Notes under the pieces: model-generated
The model's input: only the letters and a program-made list of their open reading frames with translations
Told to the model about the DNA's origin: nothing
The model's database searches: none
Origin: a virus
Strand: one strand, 5' to 3'
IMG/VR virus record: IMGVR_UViG_3300038558_000015
Location: 1-47,883 of that record
DNA length: 47,883 nucleotides
Shown here: positions 1,907-42,485 of the stretch, one piece after another
Numbering within the stretch: position 1 is the stretch's first letter
Layout: each line of letters starts with the position of its first letter
Program-made: the position numbers and the translations under genes

Positions 1907-1979
1907 ACCCGTGCGGCTGTGGTAGCCAGGAAGCCTCCAAAACTTCTGAGCGGCGGTTCGATTCCGCCCACGGGTGCCA
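1907..1979 (+). tRNA. tRNA-Trp (CCA)
   Basis: The acceptor stem ACCCGTG pairs with CACGGGT, followed by discriminator G and an encoded CCA. The loop CTCCAAA, as in bacterial tRNA-Trp, gives anticodon CCA. The T arm is GGCGG-TTCGATT-CCGCC. The D arm is slightly short, and the last anticodon-stem pair is C-A. The encoded CCA is followed by only two bases (AC) before the ATG of the next protein gene. Confidence 0.88.
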
Positions 1980-1981
1980 AC

Positions 1982-2566
1982 ATGAGTGGGAAAGACGCTT
2001 TAATAAGTGTGGCTGCTAGCCTAGAGGCTGCTATCTCCTTACTGGAGAGGGTGCCTCAGGCTAAGAAAGCAGTGGCTTCTGATCGTATGTTCGATCAGAT
2101 GATAAAGGACTATAAAGCTTCTCTTGAGAAAGCTAGAAAAGAGCTTAGGGATAGTTTGATGGAGCCATCTCCAATGAGCCCTAAAGAAGAGCTAGACTTC
2201 CTTCGAACATCTAATAGACTCCTCCGAGAAGAGGTAGTGAGACTGAGGAAAATGCGGGAAGACTCGGAGAATGGCCGTAAGATCGGCCGGCTCAAATACA
2301 TCGGGGAGCTGCCGAATGGCTGCGGCCTATGGGTCGCGCCAAATGAGGCCGGTGGACGCACCTATTGGTCTAATGAGTGCGGTATCGAGACCTTCATATG
2401 GGACACTGCCCTTGTATGCCGATCTTCTGTTCTGGCTGCACTCGTGGCCGAAGAGAAGATTGAGTATGCCGAAGCAATAAGGAAGCATTATGAAGCCAAG
2501 GGCGATCCCACTGAGCCTGTTTCGGGTAAGGGAAAAATGTCCGCTCCCGATCCTTCCATCCTCTGA
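1982..2566 (+). CDS. Hypothetical coiled-coil protein starting directly after tRNA-Trp
   Basis: ATG 1982 gives 194 residues. An upstream in-frame GTG at 1919 lies inside tRNA-Trp and is rejected. Residues about 45-105 are charged and heptad-like, which suggests a coiled coil. The second half contains a Gly/Trp/Cys-rich globular segment around GCGLWVAPNEAGG and YWSNECG. There is no room for a Shine-Dalgarno site, because the preceding bases are the tRNA acceptor arm. Translation probably uses a nearly leaderless mRNA or reads through from upstream. No known family is recognised. Confidence 0.75.
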   Translation: MSGKDALISVAASLEAAISLLERVPQAKKAVASDRMFDQMIKDYKASLEKARKELRDSLMEPSPMSPKEELDFLRTSNRLLREEVVRLRKMREDSENGRKIGRLKYIGELPNGCGLWVAPNEAGGRTYWSNECGIETFIWDTALVCRSSVLAALVAEEKIEYAEAIRKHYEAKGDPTEPVSGKGKMSAPDPSIL

Positions 2567-4426: not shown

Positions 4427-7400
4427 CTATCTTGATTCCATTGGCTGAGGCTCCGCTGGCGTTATTTCTCTTGAAAATTGAGACCCCTTTTCTCTCAGAA
4501 TAAAGCTCCTGATTGGCTCTGTGGAGGCTCTATATTCACGGACACGTCGTTGCCCGACCTTCATCTTCTCGCGATAAGTATCTTTAAGTCTTTCGTGGAA
4601 TTCACGTATACTTTGTATTTCCTGTTCTTTTTCTGCTTCTGATCTGTCAGAATCGGCTCTAATCGCTGCGATTTGTCTATTCATCTCAGCTTTAGAGTAA
4701 CCAAGTTGTCGTTTCATTTCATCAACGTCACGTTCCATCCGGCGTGCGTTGCGCTCCGTCTGATCAACCGGGTCCAGAGCCCACGTGTTGAAGCCAAGGG
4801 CTCGCGCCGCCAGGGCCGAATAATCCTCTACATACTTGCCGCTAGTCGTGACGCCGTCTCCGAAAGTCTTATCCAGGAAGCGGCCCATAAAGCCGCTGGA
4901 GCCAAACTGTGGTCGCTCATAGCCGCCAGCCAGAAGGTCAAGCTGTTGAAAGAGAGGGTCGACCATGCCGCGCATTATGGGGGGCATGTAATAATTAAAT
5001 GCATAGGAAAGGAAGCCGGCTAATTTCTGTGTGTTACTTGCTCCCTCAGGCCAAAGATCATAGCCAGTGAAACGATCTTTTCCGGTTGTATAAGCAACTA
5101 TGAAATCAATAAATGGACCACCAGCACCAAGGTCAAATGGTAATTTCATGACAAGATTTGGCAGAATATCCTGATGGCCGCCTTCGAACATATTACGTCC
5201 AGCTTGGGCCATTGGTGTCCATGGGAGATAGACGCCAAGATCAGTAAGAACGAAGTTTCCATGAGAATCCCGAATTGGTAGCGGAATGACCCCAACATTT
5301 CTGCGGAGTTCTTTGGACATTGAGGCCCGAAGCGCTTCAGCTTCATCTTCATCAAGACCCATTAGTAAAGCCACGACGCTCCAGAGAAGTCCAGAATAGA
5401 GCATAATAGGAACTGATAGTCGCGTAATGTCCGACACGCCAGAGGCTAATATTTTTGGATTAATTTGCATAAATCCATCTCTGATTTTAGCCAATCCTCT
5501 TGTGCCGAGATCAACCATCTTGGGGAAGAGCTTGTATTGCCAAGTAATGAATGGGAAGATAGTGTTTCTCAACAATCGAACAGCTGGAGGAACCAATGTA
5601 TAGTCAGGTATCCATTCGAAGCTTTCAATAATGGCGTCTCCAGGAGCCATCTTTGAATGTTTCGTGTGGAAGAAAAACATTGTATAGCGGGCCATTGTGT
5701 CGTAGAAGTTGTAGAGGTCTGCCGCCTTGCCGCCAGCCTTCGTGATAATTCTTTCAACTTCCTTATAGGCAGTCTCTAATCCAGAAAGTGAAGTATTTTT
5801 CCTCTTAAGTTCTCTGATCTTAAGCTCCGACAGAGCGTCAAGAGTTCTCCTGATTTCAGCCTCTGTAAACGTGCCTTGGATACCTCCGAGTTCCTTAAAC
5901 AGTTGCCACATGGCGCTGTTCTTTTTAGAGTCGATAAGCGCCCTAGCCGCCCAAACCGTTGTATCGGCACCTAATGTATAGGAAGACCCAACGCCCCCAA
6001 GATAAAGTGTCATTATGTTCTGCATGATCTGCCGAACATGCGTTGGCGGGTTGAGAGTTGTGACAATCCTTTTGAACCCGCGCATAAATCGGCCGGTCGC
6101 CTTATCCACTAGTTTTTCAATCTCTGGCTGATTGACTGATGCAGCTCCAGCCATCCCGACAATGTCGTTGTAAATTGCCTTATGGACGATTAATCCAGAG
6201 ATATCTCCATAAGCATATGTGGTCGGGAGCTTTCGATACGTATCTTTATCAAACTGGACAATGTTTTCGAATGAAGTTCCAACACCAACCTTCACATTAG
6301 CATTCTTGAAGATTGTTTCTATTTCATCTATGAGTTCTTGGTTGACCTTTCTCAAGAAGGGATTTTCAAGGGTCTCTCTGCTGGCGGAAAGTCTACGAAG
6401 TTCATTCCCAAGCGCATCAAAGGTCATCGTTCTGCCGTGATATTTGACGAATTGGTGCGGGATAACCCATCCCATATTATTAATACCGGACACATCTGCC
6501 ATATAGGCGATCTCTTCCATGAACCTGATGACAGAGATATCCCGACCCTGACGAATAATGCCAGCATAGGTTAAGAAGAATGGATCGGTAATGAGACCGA
6601 GCGTAGCATCTTGCTCATAAACTCTTCCCATGCTGGCCTTGTTATTTAGAGCCACACGGAATTGGTTCTGCATATAGTTATCGCCATAACGAGCGACAAA
6701 CGTACCATTTTTCTTCTTTGGCTTAATGAAGCCAGAAGCATCTATCTTCTGTTTTACTCTTTCAAGTTCACTACGTGCCCTTGCCGCCAAGTTTCTTAAA
6801 CCGTTGTGAGTAACTGAACTGAGTTGTTTCTTTGGGTTTCTAAGGAATTCAATGAATTCATCCTTCTGAGTGATATTGGCAGTGTCCCATATCGGCTGCA
6901 CGTCACGCCTCAATATCTCAACATTCATGGCCTCATCAACCACGTTAGAGGCGTTCCATATCTCCTGTCCGATGCTGTCTCCAAGACGCTGCTTGGTATA
7001 TGACTGTCTAGAGGCTTTCAGGCCCTGTTGCGTAAGCTCCCTTTGGACGTATTCCATTAACATCCGTGGAAGGTACATACCCATGTATCTGGAATACTGA
7101 GCTGTATCCAGTACGCCAGTCTGCTGAAACTTCTTTCCGAGCCTCATAAACAGGTCTTTAGCCTCGATTGCTGCCGCTCTAATTTCTGGATTTGAAATTC
7201 CGAGAGGGGCCGCATTTTTATGCGTCATGTAGTAATTAAATTCGTCACGATCCTTCTGGCTTGCCGTGTTCATGAAGTGAATAAACTTCTGAGCGAATTC
7301 TTCGAATTCGTTAATGTTTCCCCCAGTTCTTCCTCTCGAAACGAGATAAAGATTCTGATAAGGAAGATCATTCAGAGTGAAATACCATCGAGTCCATTTG

Positions 7401-10400
7401 CTTGTTTTAAGAAGCTGTTTTGGATTCATTGTTGGGGTTTGATTAATGATTTGTTTGATCGTATCGACTGAGTTAGTTCCAAGGACGCGACTTCCCGGAA
7501 CATTAGCCGGGGTTGGGATAGGTGCCCCAAGAGCGCCTATCTTAGCTGCCGCTCTTTTAGCTTTTGTTTGTTGCCTCAAATAACGCATCATCTTGCGAAC
7601 CTGATTAGGCGTCGCCATCATCATGGGTCTAGGCCCTTGATTCATGGACTTATCAAGTATCCTTTGGCTAATTAGATCGGCCTCGTTTTGAGCCTCAGTT
7701 GCTTTAGCTCCTGAATATGTCCTGCTTCCGACAACCCGAATTGTGCCAGTATCTTTATCTTTGATCAGATATCCAGCATTTTGAGGTGTAGGTTGCCTAA
7801 TGTCTCCAACAACATTATTTAATGGATCAACAAGCCCTGCCGCAGTGAAAATATATGCATGCAAAGGAACTTGTTCAGAGACATAGATATTTCCCTCTCT
7901 GTCAGTTGCGAACCTTACGTCACTATCTTCCGAGAAATCCATTCTAGAAACTTGCGTAGCGGTCGGATTGCGATGGACGTTTACAGGCGTAATAGTTCCT
8001 GTACGAGGATTCATAACTTTGGTAGGGATAATCGTGCTGCTCTTCATTGGAAGATCGGTTATAGACCGTCCATAAGGAGCCATTAGCATTGGGCCAATAT
8101 GATCAGCACCCTTTGTGTTGGACGGGTAGTAACGATCCATTACATCCTTCCAATCGACCTTCCCCTCTGTATTCTTGGGAAGGATGGCGTAGATAGGCCC
8201 GCCTACGAATGTCAGTCTCGTGCCCTCCCCTTCAATGATTGGCTCCATGTGTGGATTAGTTAGTACATGGAATTCATTGTTCATGGTCTTGCCTTCGTAG
8301 ACGCGCGCTGCCTCTTCCGACACGTTCACGTCTGAGACAAGTATCCGTCTCTTATTGGGTGGCAACCCTTGATTGTATTGCTGAACCTTCTTAGCAAGAG
8401 CTTGGTACATTTTTATTCCAAGACGCCTTCCCTGGTATTTTCCGTCGACGATCTTTCCTTGGAATTCTTCGGTTATTGCTGACCCATCTATCCTTACTGC
8501 TCTGTTGTTAGGCTGAACACGCCCTCTAATGAAGCCGATCTCCTTCCCTTCATGCATAAGGGAAACTCTATAATTCTCATCCTCACTTATGTTCCACTTG
8601 AACTCTATCCTGAACTCATTATCAAGCTTTGGAAAATTCTCATCGGCCATTTGAGCTACCCCGAAGAATTCAGAGATAGCTTCTGAATTGGCAATTTCTT
8701 TCTCAGTGTAGGGGAAATTTGCCTTCCTCTCTGCAAGAGTCATGTCCATACGTTCGGAGGCTCTTCTTGCCTCAAGCTCTCCATACAGATTCCAATACCG
8801 CTCGTAAGCAATCTCTTTCTTATACACAAGTTCCCTAAAGAGCTTCATCGTGTCAGGACCTATCTTTTTGCCTATATCTTCGAAGTGATGCATAAGCGCT
8901 CTGAGCGCATCATAGGTCTTGCTATCGCTTTCTGACATAAACTCATTCCACGATCCGCCGCGGGCAAGCATTTCATGATCTTGAATGAGATGTTGTATCT
9001 CATGAACAAGAACCTGCTTGACAGTATATCCGGGTTGTAATGTAGCCGTATTCGGGTTGTAGATGAATTCCTTCCTCGTGTAGTCAGGATTGATATAAAT
9101 AGTGCCCCCGGTAACAAAAGCTCCGCTAAGCGCCCTTGAGGGGAAGACATTAATGTTCTTAAGGTGAGGATATGCCTTATAGAGCTGAGGATGGTCAAGA
9201 ATTTCCCAAAGTTTATAGTAGCCTGCATCTAAGAGACCGCTCGCTCTTCCGAAATCTTCCAGAGCAACCCTGTATGGCAGAAGCTTTCTCTTCGTAGGTT
9301 CAGCTTTGAGTTTCTTAAGATCAATCTTGGCGTATTTGTCGCTTATCTCATAGCGCCACGATCCGTCCCTTCCCCTAAACCATCCGGTTTCCCGGAAGAT
9401 TTCCTCCATAGGAACGCCGCCTTTTTCCATGGCGTCGGCAGCCGCCAGATTGAGGCCGTTAGCCGTCAGCCCCCCCATACTACCAAAGAGAAATGACGCA
9501 CTAGAAGCCCGCCCAGAGGCCGTCTTAGCGCCGCGGGCGAGATTTCGAGCCACACGGGCCGCGTATCCCTCCTGGATCGCCATGAACACGTCCTCAGCAT
9601 TCACAATGAGATCGGAGTCGATCTTAATTCCGACACTGTTCAAGGCGGTGATGAGTCCTTCAATAAAGCGAGATATCCTATAGAGAGCCATCTTGACGGG
9701 ACCAGGAACGCCAACCCGCTTATTACGGGAAAATTCCCGGTATAGTTCGGCCGCCGCCTCTTCTTCTAGGGTTAATTCATCTAGACCTTGATAGGCTGGC
9801 GCGTTCCTTAATTCATCAACCTTTCCTGATTTATGGACGTATCTCTTGATCGCTTCTTGCTCTGTCTTATTGAGAACGCCAAGTTGATTAATTGCGTGAA
9901 ATAGTTCGTGATTGATCCTGTTTGTTGCAACCGCTATCTTCTCTTCTAGAGTCATTCCTGGATCAATCCGGCTATAGGCCAGTGTAACCGTTTTGGCAAA
10001 GTAAGAGGCGTATGCGTCTGCCACGCGGGCATGTTCAAACATACCCTCCCACGTTAGGATGTTCTTGGCTATCCTGACGCCAACATCCTTGAGGCCAATC
10101 TTGTTAAGATGCCCTCTGATAGCCATGGCGATCGTTGCGGCCTCAGCTACTGCCCTCTCTTCAAGGTTCGGCGTTGGAATATTGTTTCCATTCCGCATAA
10201 GCATCGGGCCGCCATCATTGTTCGCGGCAAGACGCTCAATAACAGAATTCATTGCATATTGCTTAAACGCAGCTCCTGTGGTTCCGGGCTTATAGGCCTT
10301 CTCATGTTTATCTATAATCTCAATTCTGTCGTTCTCATTAAGTCTTCTTAAATACGTGGCCGCTCGATATGAAGACCTTTCTAGCATTTCATTTGTATTT

Positions 10401-13400
10401 TCGACATTAATTTCAACTCTTCCCTGAGCTGCTAATAACAAATCGGCCGCTAGATTTTCCAGATGCGCCATTTCAGAATTGAAGTTGCTGATCGCTTCGT
10501 TAGTATCAGCATCGGTAATATCGTTCTGCGAGATGGAACTTTGTGTCTCCATGTAGTCCTTGAAGGTCATAGCCCTCTTGACTTCTGCCTCGCTAGAATC
10601 TGCGGAAAATTTATAGTTGGCCTTTACTTGCTCAGGGACATTCGTTTCATTACTTGGTTTATCGACGACTTCACGAGCCTTGATTATGAAGGCTTTTATC
10701 TGCGCGATCGTTTTGTTATTCAGACCCTTTGTGATTACTTCCGGCCAGAGGTTCGTTATGACCTCTACGTAAGGGGCCTTGCGTTTGAAATTCAACTTAT
10801 TGACAGCTGCCTCAAAAGCCTCTTTACTGTCATAGTTGTCCCGTAGGTGCGCCAGGGCCTCATCGACGTTCTTGATCGGAGCGGCGATCTGTTCTGGCGT
10901 GAGAACAGCTTTAGCAACTTCCTCAACGGTAGGCTCTTCGGCCTTTTCTCTGTATCCAGTTACAGCTTGAAGTCTTGCCTCAGTATCGTCTTCTGATTCT
11001 GGGACAAGTTTTTTCGAAGCCGCTATATCTTCTATCTCTTTAAGGAGAGCTTGCGCTTCGGAATCTTCTGGAAATCTAGGAAGCCATTTTCGAGCATCCC
11101 TAAGAGCCCTTGCGTAAATCTCGTCTTGATCAAAGCTGTCTTCCTTTTTTGTCTTTGCCAATTTAAGAGATTGACGTACTAGGTTTTTGGCTTTTTCTGC
11201 CTTATCGACTTCAGTTACTTTTTTTTTACCTGCCATATCACGAAGAGCGGCTATGGCTTCTTTCTTCGAAGAATAGGCTGTCCTGGTAACGGCCTCTGCG
11301 ACTTGTCTTACAAACGGAGACGGATCATTAACCAGCTCCCTGACTTCTCCAAGGAACTCTACCTCATCACCGATAAGGCTCTTCAGCCTCTCGACTGTAG
11401 CAGTGACATCATCTGTTGGCGGTGCAGTTACAGTATCTGACGCAGCTTCTTCCTGCTTTGTCTCATCCACTCTTCCAGCATAATCGGACTTAATTCTCTC
11501 TATGCCATTCTTCTTTGTGGCTGGTCTTCCAAGGTTCATCATAGAGTTGAGAGTGATGATCTGTTCCTTGGTCAGCTTTCCAAGGTTTTTATCAACCCAA
11601 TTGTTAAATTCCTCAACGCTCGGATTTGTTTTAATGAATTCTTTGACCGCCTTTCGGATTCCGACTGGACCTTCATCAGATATAGGAGTTTCCTTTTTTT
11701 CTACGGTAGGTTCTGGAGCCGTTATACCTCTGAAGGATTCGAACAGGTCCCTTACCTGACCAAGCCCTTTATTTCGTTCAGCAAACTGTCTAACAAACGC
11801 ACTAGGAAAGACGGACTCTGGTATATTAAATCTGGTCGGATCAAGAGAATCTTTGAATGTCCTAATCAAATCCTTTATGCCAATTCCTAAGGTTTTGGCA
11901 TGCCCTCGCATATCCTCAACTATTTTTAGCGCTTGCTCGGCAGAGGCTTCAGCCTTTTGGGCCTCTTGCTCAGACGGTCTAGGTTTAGCTTCGTAGTCGA
12001 AAACTTCCTCTAGTTTTTTTCTTTTTTCCTGTCTTTCTTCTTCATGTATCCTGGAACTGATCGCATAAGCTTCTTCCATAGGAACAAGCTCAAAATTGCC
12101 AGGAAGTACCCGTGCCATCCCCAATTTGCCAAGCGCTTCTACCTTCTTCAAATATTCTTGAGGCGTTTCAGGTTGAAGATTTTTCCCCATTAAGTTGCCC
12201 TTGTGAGCAAAGGCATATGCTTGATCTAAATCATGGATTCCTTCGCCAAGGGCATGGGCTTGTGAATCATAGAAGTCTTTGTCTGGATCGGGACTGTAAT
12301 AGCCATTGGGTCCACCCTCAGTATTGAAGGCAGACTTAACCTCATTCCAGACTTCCAGAAGGTTCTCAGGAACTGGAACCCTTACGCGCTCTTCTCTACC
12401 TCTTCGGCTCGGTCGGGCCATTGCTTTTGATTGACGGAGTGTTCGCACAGGCGCTGGAGCTTCCGCTTCTGGCTCTGGAGTCGGCGCAGCGCCCTCAGGA
12501 TATTTTTCTCTGATAGCTGCAAGTGCCGTATCCTTACGTTGTCGCGCAGCCTTAGAAGCTCCAACAAGTCGTGCTGCGATCTTCGTAACCGGGGCAGGGG
12601 CATCTTCTAGTTCCTTGTATCCTTCTGTACGCGTTTCGGTATTTTCAATTTTCGCAAGTATTTTTGCTGCGGTTTCACCGTGTTGAGTACGGGCTTCCTC
12701 ACGTTTGGCTTGAACCTGTCTTTGTTCTTCACTGACCTCTCCCCTCCGTCGTTTCTCGGCGGCTTCTTCCCTCTTGATATCTGCCGCTCGTTCGGTTTCC
12801 AATCCAAGATAAGTTTCGTAGAGACCGCCAAGAAGCTGTTCTCTATTAAGAATATTTAAGTTTTCTGAAACCTCATCTCTAATAGCTTCTTGTCTTTCTT
12901 CGCTTACTCCTTCCGGGTATTGAATACTATCGAGAATCGCTTCCTTAAGTTCATCGTCGCTGGCATCCTGCCATTCCCTCAAGAAGTCTTCTTCGCTGAC
13001 CGCAGTGACTTCCTCTGCCGCGACTTCACGATCTTCAATCTCTCTGGCTTCGCGTTCTGGTCCGCGAATATCCTCAGGCGCAATCTCTCCTGGTTTTGTC
13101 GGTTGGAGATTCTTAGCTGCCCGAATGATATCGTTGATCGATGCTCTTGCCCCCAGGATAGGTCTGTCCCTGGTCTTTTGGCCGTAGAGATTAACAAGCT
13201 GCCTTATTTTATTAGCAGCTGGAGTTGTATCCTTTTTGTAATAACGTTCAAGCTCAGCTTCTTGAACAAGACCCGCGATCTGATTGAGAATGTTCTGATA
13301 TTCTTGCGGAATCGGCTCGGCTTTGACGGGTTCAATCTTACGTCCAGTTAATTGCTGAGCTGTGCGAGGCGGGACAAATGTGGGCTCGGGTTTACCGGCC

Positions 13401-15394
13401 TCGACTTCCTCAGCCGTTTTTCGGCCCGGCCGTCGCTTTATATCTATGAGTTCATTATAACTTCTACGTAATGGATCAGTCGTGGGGATTGCGTCTCTGA
13501 GCCGTTTCAGAGTATCCAGGTCCGTTCGCGACGCGAGTTCTACATATTCCTCATCTGAAGCGTCTCTAGAATGAAGATCAGAAATCTCTTGACTAAGCTC
13601 TTGATCGGTCGGACCTTCCTTTTCCTTTACTGGAGGTTCTTCTGGTTCTGGCGCAGCTTCGGCCGTATCACTAACAGGTTCCGCTTCCTCCTCTACAGGC
13701 TGCTCGGCCGCCTCTGATTCTTCTACTTCCGTTGCGTAACGGACATAGGCTCCGGCCAAAGCAAAAGCTGCTTCTGGATCATTATATGATTGCGCTTCAT
13801 TAATTATTTCTTCTGCGATATTACTTAGACCGTTTTCTTCAAGGATCGAAGATAGTGCAATTACGTTCTGTGGAAGCGAGCTGCTTCTAACCATCTGAAC
13901 GGCAGATTGAATATCGCTTATTTGCTTTTTTGTTAATTCTACTGGATTTTCTTCGAAGTAACCCTCATACACTGAAGGGGTTAACTTAAACTCTTCCTCG
14001 CCATCCTCAAGCTCATCATCAATATCTTCTTGAGTCGCCGGCTCTTCATCATCTCTAAGTGTGCCTAGTCTATTCTCAGCATAGGCATTTCGTATTTGTT
14101 CGTCTGTATATCCATCTCTTTGCAGTCCTTCAGCAACGTCATTAATGTCCTGTGGCTGCTCAGCCTCCCCCGTTTCTTTCTCGATCGGCTCCGGCTGTAT
14201 CTGTGTTGGCTGTTGAATGGACGGCGGCGCTCCAGGAGCGGGCGTCGGTTCCGCAATAGCCCCGGTAGGCGAGATAATGGTTTGTCCAGACTCATCATAT
14301 AACTGTTCTTCTCTTCTCCTTAACTTTTCAATATTTTCTGCAAGTTGCTGTTCTTCTTGTTGTGGTTGTGTAAGACTTTCAATACCACCAAATCCAGCGC
14401 CACCTAACGTTCCTGCCGCAGCGCCCATAATGGCTGCCTCTGGTACGCCAGCTAACAATTGTTGTTCTGGATTAATTTGCGCTTGGGTAATATTTTGAGT
14501 AAGTTGTTCAACAACAGACTGAGGCAACTCTTCTACAATGCCCTCTTGTAGCCCTCTCTTGACAATGTTTCTAAATAGACCCTTAGCGGCTGTGCCGGCT
14601 GCCCCAGGGAGGCCAAGAGAACCGATAAGACCAACTATTGCGCCAGAACCGCCTGCCATTTGAGGGGCTAATCTCTGTGATACTAATTTTATAGCCGCAG
14701 CATAATCACCATTTGTTTCGGCAAGAGCCTGATTTCCTAAAGGAGAGTTTATAAATTCTTCTTGATTCTCTATTGCGTAGTTGGAGATTGCATCTTCTAT
14801 AGAACTTAATGTTTGAGCGCCTGAAATAAGACCCTCTAATCCTCCAGCCACTCCGGCAGACCTAGCTACCATGGCCGGACCCATTGTAGCGGCAACGGCT
14901 GGAGCGGATTCTGCTAATGTTCCAACTACAGTTTGAGGAGTGACGCCCGTCAGTTCAATAGGGCCTAGTTGAGTCCTCATTCTTTGCTGAGCCATATATT
15001 CAGGGCTCAGCGTCTCAAGTTCTTCTTCTGCTACTTGTCTTCCGTATTCTCTAGCGCCTCTACCAAAGCCTCTAATTGCCTCTGTGAGAGGAGATTTTAG
15101 AGACGGCAATGGCAGATCAACGCCAGCTGTAACGGCTCTCCACGGCCTTTCCGAGAAGCCTGCTACCAGCTCAGCGAGACCGCCGCCAGTTTCAGGAACA
15201 AGCCTTTTAGCGCCAGCGGCAAGAAGATCAGCAATATCTTCTCCAGAAGGAGCTAGTCCAAATGGAGTTATTGCTGGAGTTCCTACATTTATATCTTCAC
15301 CCTGTTGGCGGCGAACTTCTTGAGCAGCAACTTCTACAGGAGTGTCATCTTCAAATTCGTATTCTTTTCCTTGGCGACGAATAATATAGGTCAC
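4427..15394 (-). CDS. Giant polyvalent virion protein (3655 aa)
   Basis: A single uninterrupted frame fills almost 23 percent of the window. Residues 1-35 (RQGKEYEFEDDTP region) match a short N-terminal module seen on large phage proteins. Gly/Ala hydrophobic stretches follow at about 155-200, 250-270 and 320-340. Residues about 350-1500 are Glu/Lys-rich and probably coiled coil or disordered. HELFH at 1829-1833 and HEIQH at 2131-2135 are two separate HExxH zincin motifs. Residues about 1969-2018 (FRETGWFRGRDGSWRYEI) resemble the LPD23 polyvalent domain. About 2260-2400 resembles a GNAT acetyltransferase (GRRLGIKMYQALAKK). The last 600 residues resemble LPD38, with NPPTHVRQIMQN near 3110 and a hydrophobic helix near 3325-3350. 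Such proteins are thought to be packaged and ejected with DNA to counter host defences; that role here is inference. Confidence 0.88.
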   Translation of the reverse strand: MTYIIRRQGKEYEFEDDTPVEVAAQEVRRQQGEDINVGTPAITPFGLAPSGEDIADLLAAGAKRLVPETGGGLAELVAGFSERPWRAVTAGVDLPLPSLKSPLTEAIRGFGRGAREYGRQVAEEELETLSPEYMAQQRMRTQLGPIELTGVTPQTVVGTLAESAPAVAATMGPAMVARSAGVAGGLEGLISGAQTLSSIEDAISNYAIENQEEFINSPLGNQALAETNGDYAAAIKLVSQRLAPQMAGGSGAIVGLIGSLGLPGAAGTAAKGLFRNIVKRGLQEGIVEELPQSVVEQLTQNITQAQINPEQQLLAGVPEAAIMGAAAGTLGGAGFGGIESLTQPQQEEQQLAENIEKLRRREEQLYDESGQTIISPTGAIAEPTPAPGAPPSIQQPTQIQPEPIEKETGEAEQPQDINDVAEGLQRDGYTDEQIRNAYAENRLGTLRDDEEPATQEDIDDELEDGEEEFKLTPSVYEGYFEENPVELTKKQISDIQSAVQMVRSSSLPQNVIALSSILEENGLSNIAEEIINEAQSYNDPEAAFALAGAYVRYATEVEESEAAEQPVEEEAEPVSDTAEAAPEPEEPPVKEKEGPTDQELSQEISDLHSRDASDEEYVELASRTDLDTLKRLRDAIPTTDPLRRSYNELIDIKRRPGRKTAEEVEAGKPEPTFVPPRTAQQLTGRKIEPVKAEPIPQEYQNILNQIAGLVQEAELERYYKKDTTPAANKIRQLVNLYGQKTRDRPILGARASINDIIRAAKNLQPTKPGEIAPEDIRGPEREAREIEDREVAAEEVTAVSEEDFLREWQDASDDELKEAILDSIQYPEGVSEERQEAIRDEVSENLNILNREQLLGGLYETYLGLETERAADIKREEAAEKRRRGEVSEEQRQVQAKREEARTQHGETAAKILAKIENTETRTEGYKELEDAPAPVTKIAARLVGASKAARQRKDTALAAIREKYPEGAAPTPEPEAEAPAPVRTLRQSKAMARPSRRGREERVRVPVPENLLEVWNEVKSAFNTEGGPNGYYSPDPDKDFYDSQAHALGEGIHDLDQAYAFAHKGNLMGKNLQPETPQEYLKKVEALGKLGMARVLPGNFELVPMEEAYAISSRIHEEERQEKRKKLEEVFDYEAKPRPSEQEAQKAEASAEQALKIVEDMRGHAKTLGIGIKDLIRTFKDSLDPTRFNIPESVFPSAFVRQFAERNKGLGQVRDLFESFRGITAPEPTVEKKETPISDEGPVGIRKAVKEFIKTNPSVEEFNNWVDKNLGKLTKEQIITLNSMMNLGRPATKKNGIERIKSDYAGRVDETKQEEAASDTVTAPPTDDVTATVERLKSLIGDEVEFLGEVRELVNDPSPFVRQVAEAVTRTAYSSKKEAIAALRDMAGKKKVTEVDKAEKAKNLVRQSLKLAKTKKEDSFDQDEIYARALRDARKWLPRFPEDSEAQALLKEIEDIAASKKLVPESEDDTEARLQAVTGYREKAEEPTVEEVAKAVLTPEQIAAPIKNVDEALAHLRDNYDSKEAFEAAVNKLNFKRKAPYVEVITNLWPEVITKGLNNKTIAQIKAFIIKAREVVDKPSNETNVPEQVKANYKFSADSSEAEVKRAMTFKDYMETQSSISQNDITDADTNEAISNFNSEMAHLENLAADLLLAAQGRVEINVENTNEMLERSSYRAATYLRRLNENDRIEIIDKHEKAYKPGTTGAAFKQYAMNSVIERLAANNDGGPMLMRNGNNIPTPNLEERAVAEAATIAMAIRGHLNKIGLKDVGVRIAKNILTWEGMFEHARVADAYASYFAKTVTLAYSRIDPGMTLEEKIAVATNRINHELFHAINQLGVLNKTEQEAIKRYVHKSGKVDELRNAPAYQGLDELTLEEEAAAELYREFSRNKRVGVPGPVKMALYRISRFIEGLITALNSVGIKIDSDLIVNAEDVFMAIQEGYAARVARNLARGAKTASGRASSASFLFGSMGGLTANGLNLAAADAMEKGGVPMEEIFRETGWFRGRDGSWRYEISDKYAKIDLKKLKAEPTKRKLLPYRVALEDFGRASGLLDAGYYKLWEILDHPQLYKAYPHLKNINVFPSRALSGAFVTGGTIYINPDYTRKEFIYNPNTATLQPGYTVKQVLVHEIQHLIQDHEMLARGGSWNEFMSESDSKTYDALRALMHHFEDIGKKIGPDTMKLFRELVYKKEIAYERYWNLYGELEARRASERMDMTLAERKANFPYTEKEIANSEAISEFFGVAQMADENFPKLDNEFRIEFKWNISEDENYRVSLMHEGKEIGFIRGRVQPNNRAVRIDGSAITEEFQGKIVDGKYQGRRLGIKMYQALAKKVQQYNQGLPPNKRRILVSDVNVSEEAARVYEGKTMNNEFHVLTNPHMEPIIEGEGTRLTFVGGPIYAILPKNTEGKVDWKDVMDRYYPSNTKGADHIGPMLMAPYGRSITDLPMKSSTIIPTKVMNPRTGTITPVNVHRNPTATQVSRMDFSEDSDVRFATDREGNIYVSEQVPLHAYIFTAAGLVDPLNNVVGDIRQPTPQNAGYLIKDKDTGTIRVVGSRTYSGAKATEAQNEADLISQRILDKSMNQGPRPMMMATPNQVRKMMRYLRQQTKAKRAAAKIGALGAPIPTPANVPGSRVLGTNSVDTIKQIINQTPTMNPKQLLKTSKWTRWYFTLNDLPYQNLYLVSRGRTGGNINEFEEFAQKFIHFMNTASQKDRDEFNYYMTHKNAAPLGISNPEIRAAAIEAKDLFMRLGKKFQQTGVLDTAQYSRYMGMYLPRMLMEYVQRELTQQGLKASRQSYTKQRLGDSIGQEIWNASNVVDEAMNVEILRRDVQPIWDTANITQKDEFIEFLRNPKKQLSSVTHNGLRNLAARARSELERVKQKIDASGFIKPKKKNGTFVARYGDNYMQNQFRVALNNKASMGRVYEQDATLGLITDPFFLTYAGIIRQGRDISVIRFMEEIAYMADVSGINNMGWVIPHQFVKYHGRTMTFDALGNELRRLSASRETLENPFLRKVNQELIDEIETIFKNANVKVGVGTSFENIVQFDKDTYRKLPTTYAYGDISGLIVHKAIYNDIVGMAGAASVNQPEIEKLVDKATGRFMRGFKRIVTTLNPPTHVRQIMQNIMTLYLGGVGSSYTLGADTTVWAARALIDSKKNSAMWQLFKELGGIQGTFTEAEIRRTLDALSELKIRELKRKNTSLSGLETAYKEVERIITKAGGKAADLYNFYDTMARYTMFFFHTKHSKMAPGDAIIESFEWIPDYTLVPPAVRLLRNTIFPFITWQYKLFPKMVDLGTRGLAKIRDGFMQINPKILASGVSDITRLSVPIMLYSGLLWSVVALLMGLDEDEAEALRASMSKELRRNVGVIPLPIRDSHGNFVLTDLGVYLPWTPMAQAGRNMFEGGHQDILPNLVMKLPFDLGAGGPFIDFIVAYTTGKDRFTGYDLWPEGASNTQKLAGFLSYAFNYYMPPIMRGMVDPLFQQLDLLAGGYERPQFGSSGFMGRFLDKTFGDGVTTSGKYVEDYSALAARALGFNTWALDPVDQTERNARRMERDVDEMKRQLGYSKAEMNRQIAAIRADSDRSEAEKEQEIQSIREFHERLKDTYREKMKVGQRRVREYRASTEPIRSFILREKGSQFSREITPAEPQPMESR

Positions 15395-39353: not shown

Positions 39354-39600
39354 TCCCGGTAACTTTTGGACGGATGAAAAGTTAACGCTAACTGTAAATT
39401 TCTATTCTCAAGGGATTCCGGTCAAGACGATCCGGGAGATTATCGGAGCAAAAACCGATAATCTAATAGTTTGTAAAATGTGGAGCCTCGGCGTAATATG
39501 GGGCGGCGGTATACGCCGCCGCGATAAAGAGCCTGAGCCAATCTATAAGCCCAAGTTCTTTACCGGCGACCGAGATGAAAGGAAGAGCATGCGTGTGTGA
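39334..39600 (+). CDS. GcrA-like DNA-binding protein
   Basis: 88 residues. The segment FWTDEKLTLTVNFYSQGIPV followed by IREIIGAKTDNLIVCKMWSLG has the W-T-D/E start, helix spacing and final short helix of the N-terminal helix-turn-helix of GcrA, the alphaproteobacterial cell-cycle regulator. The rest is basic and short. If correct, it may redirect host transcription at methylated sites. It overlaps the VWA gene by 20 bases, and its last ten bases form the 5' acceptor strand of the tRNA-like element. Confidence 0.6.
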   Translation: MTKPGNSPGNFWTDEKLTLTVNFYSQGIPVKTIREIIGAKTDNLIVCKMWSLGVIWGGGIRRRDKEPEPIYKPKFFTGDRDERKSMRV

Positions 39601-39750
39601 GCCAGTAGGGACCGGGGACGCCCGGCGACTCCTGGGGTGGCTCTATTGTCAAGAAGTCCGGGCTGCGTCCATAGTGAAATACCTATAGCAGGCAGTGATC
39701 ACACCGGATGCCACTTGACTTTTCTGGTTCGATTCCGGACACACGCTCCA
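39591..39750 (+). ncRNA. 160-nt tRNA-like RNA with enlarged arms
   Basis: Ends are fully tRNA-like: 39591-39597 GCGTGTG pairs with 39740-39746 CACACGC, then T and an encoded CCA. The T arm is TCTGG-TTCGATT-CCGGA at 39723-39739, with exact spacing. Inside, a 6-bp stem 39599-39604/39638-39643 carries a nested CCGGG-GACG-CCCGG hairpin at 39612-39625. A second 6-bp stem, 39648-39653/39714-39719, extends by TCCGG/CCGGA (39657-39661/39704-39708), CTGC/GCAG and ATAG/CTAT around loop TGAAATAC. No ordinary anticodon loop is visible. It resembles a cloverleaf with swollen D and anticodon arms. An intron-bearing tRNA is an alternative. Confidence 0.72.
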
Positions 39751-39771
39751 TTCCTTATTTAGGAGAAAGAA

Positions 39772-40191
39772 ATGACCAAGAAAATAACCGTAGTGATTCC
39801 AAAGCGCACGGCTGAAAACACTGTCGATGCAAAGGAACCACTGACAGTTAATATAACTGCTAGCGATATCCATGGCGCAACTCTTCTCAATCCAGAAAGT
39901 TGCGCCGCCGCCCGATCCGTTAAGAGAACGCTCCATTGCCAGCGCGTGGAGATTTATCGTTCCAGAACTTATGTCTTCAATGGAAGAGGAAAATGGGTCA
40001 GATATAAAACCCCACGATCTCTGAGAGAAGAAACGATTGTTCTGGACAGAGGCGGAAAATTCCAATCCGGCGAATACACATTCGATCAGCCGGAAGTCAG
40101 GACCTATAGGCCGGCGACTAAGGCCACAAAAACTACCAACAAAAAGTCTAAAGTCAGACGAATTTTAGCTGACGTTAGGCCAAGAGCCTAA
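39772..40191 (+). CDS. Hypothetical basic protein
   Basis: 139 residues with a strong AGGAG site before ATG, located 22 bases after the CCA end of the tRNA-like RNA. The middle contains RVEIYRSRTYVFNGRGKWVR, and the tail is Lys/Arg/Thr-rich (KATKTTNKKSKVRRI), suggesting nucleic-acid contact. No family is recognised. The stop is three bases before tRNA-Arg. Confidence 0.72.
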   Translation: MTKKITVVIPKRTAENTVDAKEPLTVNITASDIHGATLLNPESCAAARSVKRTLHCQRVEIYRSRTYVFNGRGKWVRYKTPRSLREETIVLDRGGKFQSGEYTFDQPEVRTYRPATKATKTTNKKSKVRRILADVRPRA

Positions 40192-40194
40192 AGC

Positions 40195-40269
40195 GTCCCC
40201 TTAGCTCAATGGATAGAGCAGGAACCTTCTAAGTTCAAGATACGGGTTCGATTCCTGTAGGGGACGCCA
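40195..40269 (+). tRNA. tRNA-Arg (UCU)
   Basis: The acceptor stem GTCCCCT pairs perfectly with AGGGGAC; G discriminator and encoded CCA follow. The D arm is GCTC/GAGC. The anticodon loop CTTCTAA gives UCU, for AGA codons. The T arm around TTCGATT is normal. The CCA is followed by AC and then the ATG of the next gene, exactly as at tRNA-Trp. Confidence 0.93.
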
Positions 40270-40271
40270 AC

Positions 40272-40505
40272 ATGGGCATAAGGATAAAACCAAAAGACCT
40301 TAGAGAAGGAGATGTAATAGTCTCCAATAAAGACAGTATGTGCATGACCAAGGGAGAAAAATTCACAGTCTACAAGATTAACGACAAACCTTTTATCGTA
40401 TGCTTCTATAGATGGGTTCATAAGCAATGGTGTTTAGAATCTCATCCTATCGGAAAAAGGCTTGATGATGAAGGATTTCTCGCTAACTTCTCGTGGCTAA
40501 CGTGA
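40272..40505 (+). CDS. Small hypothetical protein starting two bases after tRNA-Arg
   Basis: 77 residues. The start codon is only two bases from the encoded tRNA CCA, so the mature mRNA after tRNA release would be nearly leaderless. The pattern GIRIKPKDLREGDVIVSN and EKFTVYKINDKPFIVCF suggests a small beta-barrel. No catalytic motif is seen. Unknown function. Confidence 0.68.
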   Translation: MGIRIKPKDLREGDVIVSNKDSMCMTKGEKFTVYKINDKPFIVCFYRWVHKQWCLESHPIGKRLDDEGFLANFSWLT

Positions 40506-40714
40506 ATAAACGTGTCTGCATAGACGGAACAACATCAGCAGGCTCTATATTAATAGACGGTAAGTTGTTCTGTTCTCTTCATCCAACTATAGAGGAACAA
40601 TTAAACTCCAAGCCGGCTAGCAACGAAGCTGTTCGGGAAATGAAAATGCTACATTGCGTAGCAGACGCATTAGAAAAGTTCCTGGAGGAAGAGAGTAATG
40701 CAAGTCGTACATAA
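40502..40714 (+). CDS. Small hypothetical protein
   Basis: About 70 residues from GTG 40502 (NKRVCIDGTTSAGSILIDGK follows); GTG 40493 adds three residues. LFCSLHP and LHCVADALE contribute two of its Cys residues. It overlaps both neighbours. No strong ribosome site. No family is known to me. Confidence 0.6.
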   Translation: MNKRVCIDGTTSAGSILIDGKLFCSLHPTIEEQLNSKPASNEAVREMKMLHCVADALEKFLEEESNASRT

Positions 40715-40988
40715 GTATAAAGTCGCGCCGGATGGGTTCAATCACGGCATGTTCAAGATTCCTATGCCTGAGCACGCCGAGATCGTCCATGTGGACATAA
40801 TCGATGGTCATCTTTGCTTCTGGGCAGAGATTACCAAAGAGAATAAGATGGAAGATAAACCCTTCCGTGTCTTCATGACTGGACAAGACGTAACGGATGG
40901 CGACGAATCCGAATGGCTAATCTACCATTTGAGAACGGTAGTTAATCATGATACGGGCGTTGTCATGCACGTCTACGAATACGTATGA
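40698..40988 (+). CDS. Small conserved-type phage protein
   Basis: 96 residues with GGAGG and GAGAG upstream of ATG. The order of strands (VVHKYKVAP, then IPMPEHAEIVHVDIIDGHLC, FWAEI, FRVFMTGQDV) matches small phage proteins of unknown function that I recall, beginning with a strand and an MPxxAEI turn. It ends ten bases before the tRNA cluster. Confidence 0.68.
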   Translation: MQVVHKYKVAPDGFNHGMFKIPMPEHAEIVHVDIIDGHLCFWAEITKENKMEDKPFRVFMTGQDVTDGDESEWLIYHLRTVVNHDTGVVMHVYEYV

Positions 40989-40998
40989 GATAATGGTT

Positions 40999-41104
40999 GG
41001 TTCCGTAGCTCAGTAGTAGAGCGGCGATTAATAATCGCGTCAACACGTAGGATCGGCCGGTTTTATGTGTTATGCCCTCGGTGCAATTCCAGGCGGAACC
41101 ACCA
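40999..41104 (+). tRNA. Atypical tRNA-like gene with long variable arm
   Basis: The acceptor stem GGTTCCG pairs with CGGAACC, followed by A and an encoded CCA. The D arm is GCTC-AGTAGTA-GAGC. The anticodon-like hairpin GCGA-TTAATAA-TCGC would give AAU, an unusual anticodon in bacteria. Then come about 37 bases containing an 8-bp stem AACACGTA/TATGTGTT. The T arm CTCGG-TGCAATT-CCAGG has an A-C mismatch and TGC in place of TTC. Total 106 nt. It may be a degenerate tRNA, an intron-bearing tRNA or a relative of the 39591 element. Confidence 0.55.
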
Positions 41105-41108
41105 ATAT

Positions 41109-41182
41109 AGGCCGGTAGCTCAGCTGGTTAGAGCGCACGACTGATAATCGTGAGGTGGAGGGTTCGAATCCCTCTCGGCCTA
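41109..41182 (+). tRNA. tRNA-Ile (GAU), CCA not encoded
   Basis: The acceptor stem AGGCCGG pairs with TCGGCCT (one G-T), with discriminator A. The anticodon arm CACGA-CTGATAA-TCGTG gives GAU. The T arm is GAGGG-TTCGAAT-CCCTC. The next tRNA begins at the very next base, so CCA must be added after processing. Confidence 0.92.
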
Positions 41183-41259
41183 GAGCTAGTAGCCCAACGG
41201 CAGAGGCAGCGGTGTTAAGCTCCGTTCAGTGATGGGTTCGAATCCCTCCTAGCTCACCA
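41183..41259 (+). tRNA. tRNA, probably Leu (UAA); isotype uncertain
   Basis: The acceptor stem GAGCTAG pairs perfectly with CTAGCTC, then A and an encoded CCA. The anticodon hairpin GCGGT-GTTAAGC-TCCGT gives UAA by position, but has a T-T mismatch next to the loop. Reading the loop differently would give GUU. The T stem has only three good pairs around TTCGAAT. The variable region is short for a leucine tRNA. Confidence 0.65.
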
Positions 41260-41263
41260 TAAT

Positions 41264-41349
41264 CGACGGGTGGATGAGTGGATGAAATCGCCAGACTGTA
41301 AATCTGGCCCTTAAAAAGCACGCTGGTTCGAATCCAGCCCCGTCGACCA
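41264..41349 (+). tRNA. tRNA-Tyr (GUA)
   Basis: The acceptor stem CGACGGG pairs with CCCGTCG, then A and an encoded CCA. The anticodon arm CCAGA-CTGTAAA-TCTGG gives GUA. A long variable arm of about 15 bases, as expected for bacterial tyrosine tRNA, precedes the T arm GCTGG-TTCGAAT-CCAGC. Confidence 0.93.
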
Positions 41350-41350
41350 T

Positions 41351-41422
41351 AGACCCGTAGCTTAACGGTAGAGCGCGCGCCTTATAAGCGTTAGATGCAG
41401 GGTTCGATTCCCGCCGGGTCTA
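41351..41422 (+). tRNA. tRNA-Ile (UAU), CCA not encoded
   Basis: The acceptor stem AGACCCG pairs with CGGGTCT, with discriminator A followed by CTTG. The loop CTTATAA gives UAU, which reads the rare isoleucine codon AUA. The T stem has three good pairs. It starts one base after the CCA of tRNA-Tyr. A TTG that extends the RNR frame lies two bases after its end. Confidence 0.82.
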
Positions 41423-41459
41423 CTTGCGTTACCCTAGAAATCAGAGATATTCTGGTCGA

Positions 41460-42485
41460 ATGACTCCCGGCCTTTTGATCCCATCTAAAACGTATAAGCC
41501 CTTTAGATATCCTTGGGCATTTGAATTCTGGCAACGCCAACAGCAAATTCACTGGCTCCCTGAAGAAGTTCCGCTTGGGGATGACGTTAATGATTGGAAC
41601 AATAATATAACACAAGAGGAGAAGAACTTACTTACTCAGATATTTCGTTTCTTTACACAATCTGACGTTGAAGTCAACGATAACTATATGGAACGATATT
41701 CCCGTGTGTTCGTGCCAACAGAGATTAAGATGATGCTCGCGTCATTCTCAAACATGGAGACCGTTCATATAGCAGCCTATGCTCATCTCTTAGAAACAAT
41801 CGGCATGCCAGAAGCTGAATTCGCAGCCTTCCTCGATTATGAAGAGATGCGAGCCAAACATGAATACATGAACACTTTCACGATAAAAAACCGCACAGAG
41901 ATCGTGAAAACTGTCGCTATGTTTGGAGCCTTTACAGAAGGATTGCAACTCTTTGCCAGCTTTGCCATGCTTCTAAACTTCCCTCGGTTAAACAAGATGA
42001 AAGGAATGGGCCAGATCGTAACTTGGAGTGTCAGAGATGAAAGCCTTCATTGCGAAGGCATGATCAAACTTTATCACACATTCGTGCGTGAGATTGGCGG
42101 CATCGACGACAAGACCAAAGATGAGATTGTTCAAATGTGTCTCAAGGTGGTCGAGATGGAAGATCGCTTCATTGACCTAGCATTCAGGTTGGGCGCGGTC
42201 CAAGGTATGACCCCGCTTGATATTAAGAACTACATCCGTTATATTGCTGACTGGCGCTTGCGCCAGCTCGAATTGCCGCCGATCTTTGGAATCAAAGAGC
42301 ATCCCCTGCCCTGGCTCGCGTTGATGCTCAACGGCGTGGAGCATGCCAACTTCTTTGAAGCGCGTGCTACCGAATATTCCAAGGGGGCGACAAAAGGCGA
42401 ATGGCACGGCGAGAATGGCGTGTGGGCCAACTTCGATAGTTTCATGAAGAAAAGGACAGATTTCAGTGTATCGAGTGCAGCCTGA
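41460..42485 (+). CDS. nrdB: Class I ribonucleotide reductase beta subunit
   Basis: From ATG 41460 the product has 341 residues; a TTG at 41424 would add 12. The core motifs are LIPSKTYKPFRYPWAFEFW, LLTQIFRFFTQSDVEVNDNY, SFSNMETVHIAAYAHLLETI (Glu and His iron ligands plus the expected radical Tyr) and SVRDESLHCEG (Glu and His). This is the short R2 type that makes the radical for the alpha subunit, supplying dNTPs. No alpha gene lies in the window, so it lies outside or comes from the host. It is followed by an overlapping Fic gene. Confidence 0.93.
   Translation: MTPGLLIPSKTYKPFRYPWAFEFWQRQQQIHWLPEEVPLGDDVNDWNNNITQEEKNLLTQIFRFFTQSDVEVNDNYMERYSRVFVPTEIKMMLASFSNMETVHIAAYAHLLETIGMPEAEFAAFLDYEEMRAKHEYMNTFTIKNRTEIVKTVAMFGAFTEGLQLFASFAMLLNFPRLNKMKGMGQIVTWSVRDESLHCEGMIKLYHTFVREIGGIDDKTKDEIVQMCLKVVEMEDRFIDLAFRLGAVQGMTPLDIKNYIRYIADWRLRQLELPPIFGIKEHPLPWLALMLNGVEHANFFEARATEYSKGATKGEWHGENGVWANFDSFMKKRTDFSVSSAA

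Follow-up and report, generated by a model that had tools for sequence, protein, structure and literature searches.

Junctions, gene starts and Shine–Dalgarno-like letters in the window

The window, which is the whole 47,883-nucleotide stretch of the viral record IMGVR_UViG_3300038558_000015 analysed here, carries two tRNA genes that are each followed at a distance of two bases by the ATG of an open reading frame (Table 1). At tRNA-Trp, the discriminator G (position 1976) is followed by CCA at 1977–1979, AC at 1980–1981 and ATG at 1982–1984. The CCA-AC-ATG order, with a protein gene two bases behind the CCA, had been described in the initial annotation and was confirmed from the letters and by ARAGORN, as was its reported recurrence at tRNA-Arg. 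Both tRNAs score above the Rfam gathering score of 29, and tRNA-Trp is fairly degenerate, with several non-standard pairs in the D and anticodon arms in the Rfam comparison. The gene upstream of tRNA-Arg ends with its stop codon 3 nt before the tRNA, which is therefore sandwiched between genes.

Table 1. Features at the two tRNA–gene junctions of the window.
Feature	Position	Strand	Basis
tRNA-Trp, anticodon CCA, CCA end encoded	1907..1979	+	ARAGORN; Rfam RF00005, 34.8 bits
GGGTG, acceptor 3' strand and discriminator of tRNA-Trp, weakly SD-like	1972..1976	+	duplex −3.8 kcal/mol
First CCA-AC-ATG junction, behind tRNA-Trp	1977..1984	+	sequence
Protein gene, 194 aa, N-terminal domain common to other phage proteins	1982..2566	+	codon usage; phrog_29865; BLASTP
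Gene upstream of tRNA-Arg	39772..40191	+	ORF list; codon usage P < 0.001
tRNA-Arg, anticodon TCT, CCA end encoded	40195..40269	+	ARAGORN; Rfam, 63.8 bits
AGGGG, acceptor 3' strand of tRNA-Arg, SD-like	40259..40263	+	duplex with anti-SD −6.4 kcal/mol
Second CCA-AC-ATG junction, behind tRNA-Arg, ATG at 40272	40267..40274	+	sequence
Short ORF of 77 aa, a probable gene	40272..40505	+	codon usage P = 0.048

The octamer CCAACATG is present in two copies in the window, each at a tRNA–ATG junction. Its bare recurrence is not significant, since chance alone would give 1.12 copies of the octamer; where the copies stand says more. Among viral tRNAs sampled outside the patterns used for scanning (see below), ACATG stood right behind the CCA in 3 of 733, and in the whole sample it did so in 5 of the 1739 listed tRNAs. 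The window has seven CCA-ended tRNAs, five called by ARAGORN and two read from the sequence (1739–1814 and 40999–41103), and the occurrence of ACATG behind two of the seven is unlikely by chance (about 3e-4 by our own estimate). The junction layout is real and rare.

The frame opened by ATG 1982 has coding-like codon usage relative to the wrong frames (P = 0.001), with P = 0.001 for codons 21–60 and P = 0.081 for the first 20 codons alone. Residues 5–57 of its product match phrog_29865 (E = 4e-11), and BLASTP alignments begin at residue 1 with a protein of Rhizobium phage RHph_I4 and at residue 5 with a Pseudomonas phage protein of the KPP25 type. The gene very probably starts at ATG 1982, because the domain begins at residue 1–5 and later starts would cut it; the internal candidates GTG 2009, GTG 2051 and ATG 2087 were rejected on this ground. 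Upstream, GTG 1919 inside tRNA-Trp is the only other in-frame start. The frame is indeed open through the tRNA, giving 221 aa in place of 194. Nevertheless, the in-frame tRNA stretch does not look clearly coding (P = 0.091), an open run of 27 codons is nothing unusual, and a start of the gene anywhere other than ATG 1982, whether inside the tRNA or at one of the internal codons, is considered highly improbable.

Domain searches returned 21 viral and 3 genome loci, and 23 of the 24 were examined; L361, where the match starts right at the edge of the locus, was left out. An in-frame ATG lies 4–6 codons before the matched stretch in three of them (L354, L355 and L357), as it does here, with an additional in-frame ATG 20 codons before it in L354; in most of the remaining loci the domain sits deeper within the open frame. 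No tRNA was found in the 23 loci.

The ORF behind tRNA-Arg is probably a gene and is less certain than that behind tRNA-Trp. It had no Pfam match at E ≤ 0.001 and only weak matches to PHROGs (E 0.04–0.09).

The initial annotation had further held that the junctions leave no space for a Shine–Dalgarno (SD) site. As to a separate leader this was borne out, with ATG 1982 two bases behind the CCA, and both SD-like sites of the window lie inside a tRNA. As to the site itself the claim was wrong at tRNA-Arg, where AGGGG lies 8 nt before ATG 40272, and overstated at tRNA-Trp, where GGGTG lies 5 nt before ATG 1982. Random 22-mers of the window gave a mean of −2.3 against the anti-SD, and 17% of them reached −4.5 or lower. 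An SD-like site about 4–11 nt before the start is present at tRNA-Arg and marginal at tRNA-Trp. Among 42 other starts, which were assigned from ORF lists and may include misassigned ones, the SD was equal to or weaker than that of the Trp gene in 15 and that of the Arg gene in 31. A weak SD is ordinary in the window.

The tRNA-Arg transcript has a strong predicted fold (z −2.9) in which AGGGG is paired in the acceptor stem; use of these bases as an SD and folding of the tRNA would therefore be mutually exclusive. An acceptor arm can itself hold an SD site in an unfolded or uncut transcript. Because the end of tRNA-Arg holds a ribosome-binding-like site, the layout alone is no proof that tRNA cutting is required.

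Tight junctions in other viruses and the search for relatives

The placement of genes behind tRNAs was surveyed in at least 304 viral loci collected by three tRNA-3'-end patterns. Of the 2061 tRNAs in these loci, 1739 were kept once those lacking a CCA end, those repeating a 100-nt context and those lying too close to the edge of a locus had been removed. The patterns favor tRNAs with an ATG shortly behind the CCA and the listed tRNAs are a sample, so that the counts serve as ratios and not as prevalence.

Among the listed tRNAs, an ATG 0–5 nt after the CCA opened an ORF of 50 or more codons in 38 of 392 cases, compared with 128 of 520 for an ATG at 9–20 nt (p = 4e-9). For ATGs located within the final 60 nt of tRNAs, which served as the null, the count was 46 of 798 (p = 0.016 against the tight junctions). 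A random-codon null (about 9%) makes the tight junctions look like pure chance and was rejected in favor of the in-tRNA ATGs. Tight junctions are rare; most are ATGs that stand there by chance, and a minority belong to real genes. Across unrelated viruses in the listed loci the gap varies and is longer in most cases; with the usual start 9–20 nt after the CCA, an SD can be accommodated outside the tRNA.

The tight ORFs of 100 or more codons among the listed loci number 11 (12 as counted, L081 appearing twice). Family checks against Pfam or PHROGs took in nine of these, with L295 and L315 left out, and six matched known families; L220, L081 and L289 had no match where tested. Two of the six have a strong SD-like stretch embedded in the tRNA. 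In L200, an epimerase whose Pfam match runs from residue 4 starts 3 nt behind a tRNA-Arg with AGGTGG in its acceptor strand (−7.2), and in L314 a 2OG-oxygenase-like protein, matching phrog_2297 from residue 1, starts 1 nt behind a tRNA-Ile with GAGG in the same strand (−7.2). No embedded SD was present before the other four, namely a dCMP deaminase (L035, gap 5), an HNH endonuclease (L302, gap 0), an HNH protein (L343, gap 3) and PTH2 (L214, gap 4).

SD-like tRNA ends were found before 9 of 38 tight ORFs of 50 or more codons and before 39 of 354 other tight ATGs (one-sided p = 0.029). The enrichment is weak: it was gone at ORFs of 100 or more codons (2 of 12), and the three thresholds of 50, 70 and 100 codons gave uncorrected p values of 0.029, 0.032 and 0.40.

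In L314 and L302 a tRNA also follows 1–2 nt behind the stop codon (1 nt in L302). The genes at L302:4804-5460 and L314:7722-8365 thereby lie between tRNAs with gaps of 0–2 nt on both sides, a mitochondria-like layout. A PTH2-like (peptidyl-tRNA hydrolase) ORF at L214:5150-5449 is likewise located between tRNA genes, 4 nt after tRNA-Thr.

Relatives of the window were sought by protein and DNA. Its terminase shares about 40–44% identity with the terminases of Pelagibacter phages HTVC027P and HTVC023P and phage DSL-LC04, and 43–50% identity with the terminases encoded in 35 viral contigs, in whose loci ARAGORN found no tRNA. In viral contigs, neither the genes behind tRNA-Trp and tRNA-Arg nor a 270-aa phosphoesterase retrieved a close relative. 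Against phages, the full Trp-gene protein had no match at E ≤ 0.01 and its first 70 residues gave seven weak records, while the 17 records for the Arg-side protein (best E about 1) were set aside. DNA of the Trp region had no phage match. The phage matches listed for DNA of the Arg region were all on tRNAs, and the CCA-AC-ATG junction was not repeated beside those examined: the annotated gene after tRNA-Arg begins after a 13-nt gap in Enterobacter phage KKP_3711, and 48 nt separate the matched tRNA from the next annotated gene in Serratia phage BF. DNA of L314 and L302 gave short phage matches covering 10–13% of the query, mostly annotated tRNAs, and that of L200 gave none.

Several of these observations bear on the possibility that the junctions reflect plain genome packing, in which tRNAs were inserted or moved before existing genes that are translated weakly and independently of an SD, the gap having no regulatory meaning. 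Such packing would fit the 15 of 42 other starts with an SD no stronger than that of the Trp gene, the domain relatives that can have their start at the same point without a neighboring tRNA, and the modest excess of ORFs at tight ATGs over in-tRNA ATGs (38/392 vs 46/798). Nevertheless, ACATG at both junctions, as against 3 of 733 tRNAs elsewhere, exceeds what loose packing would be expected to give, unless one of the two arose as a copy of the other. We regard plain packing as an unlikely explanation, though one of some weight.

Possible initiation on tRNA–mRNA transcripts

Building on what the analysis gives directly, namely the layout of both junctions, the codon at which the Trp gene starts and the SD-like bases with their pairing in the predicted fold, we tentatively favor a reading in which the two genes are tightly packed tRNA–mRNA co-transcripts, with initiation possible on uncut RNA and tRNA maturation competing with it; this may well be correct, but we hold it with less than even confidence. 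Each tRNA and its downstream gene would be on one transcript, the gene starting at the ATG two bases behind the CCA, and ribosomes would start on transcripts in which the tRNA is not, or not yet, folded or excised. At tRNA-Arg, initiation would use the AGGGG of the acceptor 3' strand; at tRNA-Trp, an SD would contribute little or nothing, as holds for many further starts in the window. Maturation and translation would compete for the same bases, and maturation would not be required.

The short distance between the upstream stop codon and tRNA-Arg supports co-transcription. A scan for sigma-70-type promoters found no promoter-like site in 1400–2700, and in 39400–41500 a single plus-strand 9-of-12 site (39646–39675), no more than shuffled sequences give. 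The scan covered sites of this type only, so that co-transcription is an inference.

The embedded SD has parallels in L200 and L314. Against it, the site is marginal at tRNA-Trp, buried at tRNA-Arg and missing in L035, L302, L343 and L214. A stronger version of the idea is that the 3' strand of the acceptor stem doubles as the SD of the next gene, forming a switch of folding and processing by which tRNA supply and the expression of that gene are coupled; it would operate at tRNA-Arg, L200 and L314, and SD-less tight junctions would use cut, near-leaderless messages. We consider this version doubtful and quite improbable.

Another alternative, raised in the initial annotation, is that translation depends on processing, with a cut after the CCA leaving a near-leaderless mRNA with an AC-AUG 5' end and an SD-free start. 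The leader of two bases behind the CCA and the lack of a strong SD at the Trp gene are in line with this, as are the SD-less, family-supported tight genes elsewhere, including that of L302 with its gap of 0 and another tRNA 1 nt behind its stop. Tight junctions are nevertheless rare among the listed viral tRNAs. Moreover, the E. coli tRNA 3' end is described as arising by cleavage a few nucleotides downstream followed by trimming (PMC4681348), which would here run into the start codon. For some tRNAs of S. coelicolor (PMC4681348) and of P. acnes (PMC3848588), the cut is reported to fall within the CCA itself. The model needs a cut exactly at the CCA; the E. coli pathway, which may not be that of the host, is a weak argument against it and no refutation. 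We rate dependence on processing as rather unlikely.

The arrangement resembles mitochondrial tRNA punctuation, in which protein genes abut tRNAs with almost no leader and excision could release the mRNA. According to the account of the mitochondrial model in PMC8601606, tRNA excision makes most mRNA ends. Near-zero gaps between tRNA and gene, a trait of punctuation, occur in the window only as the 2 nt at both junctions and the 3 nt before tRNA-Arg. Unlike mitochondria, the phage has just two such junctions and many genes with an SD.

If the RNA were cut right after the CCA, the messages would also resemble bacterial leaderless mRNAs, defined by a leader of less than 10 nt, of which 264 are reported in S. 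coelicolor and only five in E. coli (PMC4681348). Those described in PMC3848588 and PMC4681348 differ in origin: transcription begins at the AUG or close to it, or MazF cuts the message, and the passages on them name no origin by tRNA cutting. Ordinary junctions of tRNA-rich phages likewise have tRNA and gene on the same strand and probably on one transcript, but the start usually lies about 9–20 nt after the CCA, so that an SD fits between tRNA and gene. Among the papers listed in literature searches we recognized no description of tRNA-cut leaderless phage mRNAs or of acceptor-stem SD sites, which is not to claim that none is in print. On present evidence the arrangement is rare and recurrent and is not a new system.

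If the cutting or folding of a tRNA decides whether the next gene is translated, phage tRNA genes would act in regulation in addition to aiding decoding, and bacterial viruses would have a punctuation like that of mitochondria. Clean test cases are offered by the window and by L200, L314 and L302 from other viruses.

Further tRNA-like and coding features of the window

A tRNA-Asn-like sequence at 1739–1814 (anticodon GTT and CCA end by our own reading) was missed by ARAGORN and scored weakly in Rfam as tRNA-Sec (29.1 bits); it overlaps a 62-aa ORF (1712–1900) whose codon usage is not clearly coding. A second tRNA-like sequence missed by ARAGORN, at 40999–41103 (Rfam, 36.7 bits), has a long insert between the anticodon and T arms, possibly an intron or a sign of a damaged tRNA. 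In the ARAGORN call, tRNA-Ile(gat), which has no encoded CCA, shares base 41183 with tRNA-Leu(taa), the last base of one being the first of the other. In the stretch 41351–41460, a tRNA-Ile(tat), also without encoded CCA, is directly followed by an in-frame TTG of the ribonucleotide reductase ORF; ATG 41460 is the likelier start, and the 12 codons preceding it are not coding-like. Finally, the 3655 codons of 4427–15394 form one ORF, which weakly matches several families, a DarB-like antirestriction family among them.
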